The notes under the pieces were generated by a model that saw only the letters and a program-made list of their open reading frames with translations, did not search any database and was not told the origin of the DNA. 64,000 bases of DNA from Halomarina rubra (GTDB lineage: Archaea; Halobacteriota; Halobacteria; Halobacteriales; Haloarculaceae): assembly GCF_023699475.1 (NCBI RefSeq), contig NZ_JALXFV010000008.1, positions 658,583 to 722,582 of the forward strand, written 5' to 3'. How positions within the stretch are numbered: the first letter of the stretch is position 1; every line of letters starts with the position of its first letter. Positions 56,718-56,893 of this stretch are shown piece after piece. Made by a program: the position numbers and the translations under genes.

Positions 56718-56750
56718 GAACTACTTGGATTTCCTTGGGAGTTCCCACAC

Positions 56751-56866
56751 ATAAAGCCCCCGCACGCGCGCGCGGAGTGAATGTGAAAGTGGAACGCGCA
56801 CGGTCGCCGAACCGTGCGCCGGAGACACACGGTTACACTTTCACCACGCTAACGGGGAGGTTTTAA
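56751..56866. promoter_or_regulatory. Divergent gyrB/top6B control region with inverted repeats
   Basis: Holds the gyrB TATA (complement of ATAAA at 56751-56755) and the top6B TATA (TTTTAA at 56861-56866). Between them is a perfect inverted repeat GCGCACGGT (56796-56804) and ACCGTGCGC (56811-56819), six bases apart. The nine bases GTGAAAGTG (56783-56791) recur inverted as CACTTTCAC (56836-56844), so one copy faces each promoter. Binding by a shared regulator is inferred, not shown. Confidence 0.6.
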
Positions 56867-56893
56867 CCGCACGGTAGCAAGAGACCCAACAGG

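Follow-up and report, generated by a model that had tools for sequence, protein, structure and literature searches.

According to the comparison of haloarchaeal sequences, the 176 bp that separate gyrB from top6B in the window (i.e., the whole stretch of 64,000 nucleotides that was analyzed) would represent two core promoters placed back to back, each of them having a conserved element of its own, with no shared operator. The two elements are conserved, lie at a fixed spacing, are specific for their genes and are independent of each other; the most likely explanation of their function is, as we infer, that torsion or Z-DNA acts at gyrB and an activator at top6B. The features of the region are the following (the coding sequences are based on the ORF list):

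54789-56717, minus strand: gyrB coding sequence, 642 aa, the first gene of the gyrBA operon
56718-56893: gyrB-top6B gap, 176 bp, between the two divergent genes
56755-56750, minus strand: gyrB TATA-like box TTTATG, recognized by its sequence and by a conserved TTTA column whose spacing is fixed across 136 gyrB promoters
56759-56774, minus strand: alternating CG/CA tract, adjoining the gyrB TATA box on its upstream side
56761-56774: uninterrupted purine-pyrimidine run CGCACGCGCGCGCG (plus strand), 14 nt
56772-56759: conserved block CGCGCGCGTGCGNG, in the gyrB orientation
56783-56791, no strand: GTGAAAGTG facing gyrB, limited to three Halomarina species, two of which have a degenerate version
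56796-56819, no strand: 9-bp perfect inverted repeat GCGCACGGT / ACCGTGCGC, with a loop of 6, species-specific
56836-56854, plus strand: top6B upstream element CACTTTCACCACGCTAACG, consensus CACTTTCACYNNGSTNNCG, a TTTCACTTTCA-type motif with a conserved 3' extension
56861-56866, plus strand: top6B TATA-like box TTTTAA, recognized by its sequence and by conserved columns
56894-59281, plus strand: top6B coding sequence, 795 aa

The top6A gene begins at 59283, right behind top6B. Relatives of gyrB were retrieved by tblastn across the whole order, and top6B was matched in 59 out of the 59 relatives searched; the nearest named genome is that of Halomarina oriensis (L031), whose top6B shares 92% identity. 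The gap was compared in a sample of 61 distinct haloarchaeal gyrB-top6B loci, the window's own gap included, and the genome-wide statements derive from pattern searches of the genome. In several of the relatives (G010, G023, G027, G033, G043, G055 and others) the matches to top6B are interrupted near residue 118, and at other loci near 303 or 388; the splits near 118 span about 1.3-3.6 kb of DNA, mostly inside one long stop-free frame, and look like inteins occupying one site in several genera.

A preliminary description of the gap had reported TATA boxes for both directions, a nine-base perfect inverted repeat near the middle and one copy of GTGAAAGTG facing each promoter, and had proposed that one regulator, or supercoiling itself, could set the ratio of gyrase to topoisomerase VI. 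The structures themselves are all present, the boxes being TTTATG (gyrB) and TTTTAA (top6B), the arms of the repeat lying at 56796-56804 and 56811-56819 with a loop of 6, and the two copies being found at 56783-56791 and, as the inverse CACTTTCAC, at 56836-56844. Their expected conservation across haloarchaeal gaps did not hold, since the alignment revealed that only the top6B-facing copy is kept: CACTTTCAC is matched at 8 or more of its 9 positions in 57 of the 61 gaps (exactly in 45), whereas the gyrB-facing GTGAAAGTG is exact in the window only and reaches 8/9 in two close sisters, for a total of three gaps. By its conservation, the former appears clearly non-random and the latter does not; hence, the two copies do not seem to be equivalent, the one facing top6B being the putative element and the one facing gyrB a local feature. 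Next to the CG tract, at 56775-56790, the three sister Halomarina gaps have in common AGTGAATGTGRAA (TTYCACATTCACT in the gyrB orientation), which lies about one helical turn further from the TATA box than the top6B element does and is perhaps a lineage-specific degenerate copy.

These data bear on the idea that one regulator, reading the paired copies of GTGAAAGTG as well as the central inverted repeat, sets the ratio of gyrase to topoisomerase VI. The pair is real, in that its two members extend to 13 nt with a complementarity of 92%; the distance from the gyrB-facing copy to the TATA box of gyrB is 36 nt, i.e., one helical turn beyond the conserved 26 nt of top6B, and at least 8/9 of it is found in three Halomarina species. 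However, these sisters are the only ones among the 61 gaps to harbor it, the copy is degenerate even within the genus, the inverted repeat occurs in none of the 60 other gaps, and the element of top6B is a damage motif that is also located at genes unrelated to supercoiling. Moreover, the elements go with their genes when these are separated: wherever a genome has gyrB and top6B at separate loci (e.g., L012, L016, L022, L049, L088, L093 and L096), top6B keeps CACTTTCAC and its TATA box, and gyrB keeps the CG tract and its own TATA box, so that each gene retains its own, different element. Strict patterns of both elements gave at most one match per genome in 40 genomes and a control pattern gave none, and in the window's genome each pattern still has a single match with two to three mismatches allowed; this suggests that they are gene-specific elements and not halves of one operator. 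A shared bidirectional operator was thus rejected, the symmetric sites being unconserved and the elements segregating with their genes. We regard the single regulator as very improbable, and as a general mechanism it appears to be already refuted by these comparisons.

As regards the central inverted repeat, shuffling the gap 1000 times (dinucleotide shuffles) gave a perfect arm of at least 9 bp with a loop of at most 12 in 0.8% of cases; by itself the repeat is mildly unusual with respect to chance, yet it is unconserved, being absent from all of the 60 other distinct haloarchaeal gaps, those of the sister Halomarina species among them. The only other gap with a perfect arm of at least 9 bp is L069, where the sequence differs from that of the window. 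Furthermore, the repeat is centered at 56807.5 and the GTGAAAGTG/CACTTTCAC pair at 56813.5; therefore, the two are not concentric. One might suppose that a hairpin or cruciform formed by the repeat insulates the two promoters, in agreement with the perfection of the arms over 9 bp, their rarity in the shuffles and the presence of a short GCCACC/GGTGGC hairpin (z = -2.4) in the sister L003. Nevertheless, the folding z score of the spacer is -1.3 in the window and near 0 in other sisters, neither the position nor the sequence of the repeat is conserved, and the repeat is upstream of both predicted start sites and would therefore not be transcribed, so that we give this insulator hardly any credit. 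A conserved spacer hairpin or cruciform was rejected on the basis of z scores of -1.3, -0.6, -2.4, -0.5, -0.3, +1.0 and -0.5 in seven Halomarina-group loci.

The element that is conserved at top6B corresponds to a motif already described. In Halobacterium sp. NRC-1, TTTCACTTTCA was found upstream of radA1, top6B, vng17 and vng280 (Boubriak et al. 2008, PMC2556686), and a low dose of UV-B raises the expression of these four genes, top6A and top6B being induced by about 1.5-1.8-fold (PMC2556686). The window copy, TTACACTTTCACC, matches the exact 11-mer TTTCACTTTCA at 9 of 11 positions, with two positions off and the core CACTTTCA intact, and many relatives match the full 11-mer. The two share the same core and the same location, upstream of the TATA box and roughly 50-60 bp ahead of the start codon (the first base of CACTTTCAC precedes the top6B ATG by 58 bp), and top6B was already among the original four genes; on the other hand, the motif considered here is longer (CACTTTCACYNNGSTNNCG), is class-wide, has a fixed TATA spacing (26 nt from its first base in 122 of 147 promoters) and is also located at hef across the class, plus at further genes in the window's genome. 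On this basis, we identify the top6B element as the Halobacterium UV/DNA-damage promoter motif and predict that it is damage-responsive here as well. In the searchable literature, the motif string was retrieved from one haloarchaeal paper only, with no regulator named.

A relaxed scan of the window's genome, with gene names assigned by NCBIfam, found the core 50-65 bp upstream of nreA, hef, uvrB, a TnpB gene and an Orc1/Cdc6 gene, several of these sites thus lying at a distance from the start codon like that of top6B; the core was also found further upstream of an RPA-type gene and of radA, and upstream of several genes without a clear function. By raw number, the matches of WYACTTTCACY in the genome show no excess over those of the reversed control (16 vs. 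13); for this reason, the assignment of a damage set is based on the position of the sites and on the identity of the repair genes. The clearest case is hef: its core is matched at 8 or more of 9 positions in 22 out of 30 haloarchaeal promoters, compared to 0.5% of shuffles, and at 7 or more in 29 out of 30, and its consensus CACTTTCACCCCGCTACGCGAACCCTTA has the same 3' extension as that of top6B and a TATA spacing within 1 nt of it. The hef promoters (L339/L380-L409) keep CACTTTCACCCCGSTACRCGAACCCTTA over haloarchaeal families, a pattern stronger than expected for a gene that is absent from the UV-induced lists in the literature examined. The nreA gene was rejected as a class-wide member, the element being found in four Halomarina genomes and in L375, with a weaker match in L363. 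According to these alignments, topoisomerase VI would belong to a DNA-damage promoter set reaching hef, and uvrB, an RPA gene and radA are probably members of the same set. Against the damage reading, the UV induction of top6B is small, and one Halobacterium UV study reported no induction of uvrB (PMC1224876).

Three other genes of this genome have the motif upstream. The TnpB-family (RNA-guided endonuclease) gene (L335:1553-2875; G000:C3:6877) has TTTACTTTCACT 52 bp before its start; in Halobacterium, UV-B likewise induces npa, a putative transposase gene that has the near-match TTTTACTTTCA (PMC2556686). The damage promoter may therefore have been acquired by mobile elements. A 240-aa protein (L346:1559-2278; G000:C15:29946) is preceded by the motif at 58 bp from its start and has no match in Pfam or NCBIfam; it is possibly a new repair gene. 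The third is the Orc1/Cdc6-family gene (L336:1566-2759; G000:C3:38239). In Sulfolobales, the damage-responsive element ANTTTC is bound by Orc1-2 (PMC9738581); that element, too, is a damage element, the haloarchaeal core ACTTTC fits it, and an orc1/cdc6 gene of the window's genome carries the haloarchaeal motif. Nevertheless, Sulfolobales belong to another phylum, and the haloarchaeal motif is longer and bipartite. The resemblance may be taken as a lead and not as evidence, as six bases can match by chance; by analogy with Orc1-2, the motif-bearing Orc1/Cdc6 gene might possibly encode a self-regulated regulator.

On the gyrB side, the most conserved feature of the promoter is the CGCACGCGCGCGCG tract, which the preliminary description did not mention. 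In the gyrB orientation the layout is CGCGCGCGTGCGNG-NNN-TTTAT, with the tract abutting the TATA box. Of 136 haloarchaeal gyrB genes, 94% have an alternating run of at least 10 nt within the 100 bp upstream, compared to a frequency of 5.8% in random 100-mers, these figures being obtained without motif anchoring; in the 30 bp above the TATA box, runs of the same length are present in 95% of 133 gyrB promoters, with 0% for the 141 top6B promoters and a background of 1.5% in random haloarchaeal 30-mers. No alternating run was found upstream of gyrB in 19 non-haloarchaeal relatives; all ten haloarchaeal gyrB genes of the same sample have one, with different sequences and the alternation kept. Likewise, the divergent tracts of L262, L263 and L264 (CGCGCGCACGCGTGCG, TACGCGCGCACGCGCATG) have changed in sequence and are still alternating.

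According to the ZSeeker dinucleotide weights (PMC12123511), CGCACGCGCGCGCG is the top-scoring of 218 uninterrupted runs in 464 kb of the genome and the only strong run adjoining a TATA-like sequence in the 464 kb scanned; moreover, the gyrB tract is unique in the 4.07-Mb genome at up to two mismatches. When interruptions are allowed for, as in a Kadane-type Z score, the tract is outscored by many coding segments of the GC-rich genome. The scoring of the whole window with ZSeeker weights and interruptions allowed was dropped, being uninformative in GC-rich coding DNA, and uninterrupted runs were used in its place; what is exceptional is the uninterrupted run only.

Reviews report that novobiocin induces gyrB of Haloferax up to 20-fold (PMC9348778, PMC8643681) and that in Halobacterium it induces gyrase and other topoisomerases (PMC9348778, PMC8643681), the Halobacterium novobiocin paper itself naming gyrase and type I topoisomerases (PMC3184054). 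Because of the conservation of the tract and of this published induction of gyrB, we consider the CG tract the best candidate for a supercoiling sensor, for gyrase alone, by a mechanism that we infer. The suggestion that supercoiling itself is the controlling factor thus gains indirect support for gyrB only (class-wide CG tract and novobiocin induction; PMC9348778, PMC3184054), whereas what is conserved at top6B is a promoter motif known from UV/DNA damage (PMC2556686) and not a supercoiling element.

The tract might instead be an ordinary sequence-specific site where CGCGCGCGTGCGNG is read with no role of Z-DNA, a possibility that we consider rather unlikely; the site could, just as tentatively, be an unusual BRE or that of a dedicated protein (a TFB paralogue or a repressor). 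Such a protein site is a serious rival, because single bases are near-invariant (columns 4, 5, 11 and 13 of the tract at 95-98%, with G at column 13 at 95%, and T at column 8 at 87%), a conservation beyond what Z-DNA requires, and because the substitution test does not favor alternation: the ratio of alternation-keeping to other substitutions (ts:tv) is 39:16 in the gyrB tract and 91:63 in the top6B element, which is not a significant enrichment (p = 0.15). The fixed distance at which the tract abuts the TATA box agrees with it as well. Conversely, alternation survives both sequence change (L257, L259 and L262-L264) and the insertion of 2-bp units (TACACGTG vs. TACGTG), no other uninterrupted alternating run in the 464 kb is as extreme as the tract, and the reported novobiocin induction of gyrase genes needs a torsion-related input.

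The reading that we favor, and hold to be fairly probable, is that of two independent promoters, with an activator site of the damage set at top6B and a Z-DNA-prone torsion tract at gyrB. At top6B, with top6A behind it, the activator-type site CACTTTCACYNNGSTNNCG, 26 nt from the TATA box, would be read by a putative activator; damage or stalled forks would then lead to the production of topoisomerase VI through the set common to hef, radA, uvrB and the RPA gene, among others. At gyrB, the Z-DNA-prone alternating CG tract would occupy the region that TFB and TBP have to bind. As long as the DNA is underwound, as it normally is, strain would be taken up by the tract through a B-to-Z flip or a distortion, and the binding of TFB/TBP would be weaker; when supercoils are lost, the tract would return to the B-form, gyrB would be transcribed and supercoiling would be restored, which would represent a homeostat in cis. 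One published observation counts against the top6B part of this model, i.e., that topoisomerase VI is also raised by novobiocin, according to the reviews (PMC9348778, PMC8643681); a pure damage element would not predict such a rise, unless damage signalling results from the poisoning of gyrase.

The known haloarchaeal example of control by non-B-DNA and supercoiling is, as the reviews describe it, the Halobacterium bop promoter, with its alternating purine-pyrimidine box (Yang et al. 1996, via PMC9348778, PMC8643681). As far as that account goes, gyrB resembles bop in the alternating purine-pyrimidine sequence at a haloarchaeal core promoter and in the response of the gene to gyrase inhibition, and differs from it in that its tract consists almost entirely of CG/CA, precedes the TATA box and is class-wide; furthermore, the expected sign is opposite, supercoiling stimulating bop, whereas gyrB should be induced by relaxation, a point that speaks against the gyrB part of the model. 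In bacteria, the transcription of gyrase genes is stimulated by relaxation (Menzel and Gellert 1983, as cited in PMC3184054). The homeostatic logic of the bacterial genes, as cited there, is the same, expression going up when supercoiling falls, whereas here the promoter is of the archaeal TATA/TFB type and has a candidate Z-DNA-prone element. To our knowledge, no Z-DNA-prone element exists at bacterial gyr promoters.

In its most specific form, the proposal would combine a protein-free gyrase homeostat, with torsion sensed by a class-wide tract overlapping the TFB-binding region, with the inclusion of topoisomerase VI in a damage regulon activated by an Orc1/Cdc6 paralogue that reads ACTTTC, as Orc1-2 of Sulfolobales does; as a whole, this combination is doubtful in our view.

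Two questions are concerned here, namely how supercoiling is kept constant in archaea and how their damage response is controlled without LexA. The gyrB-top6B gap would supply one well-defined candidate cis element for each of them, both class-wide and both unique enough for clean mutation. This, in turn, would set apart the control of gyrase from that of topoisomerase VI, although the two are usually assumed to be co-regulated as neighboring genes.
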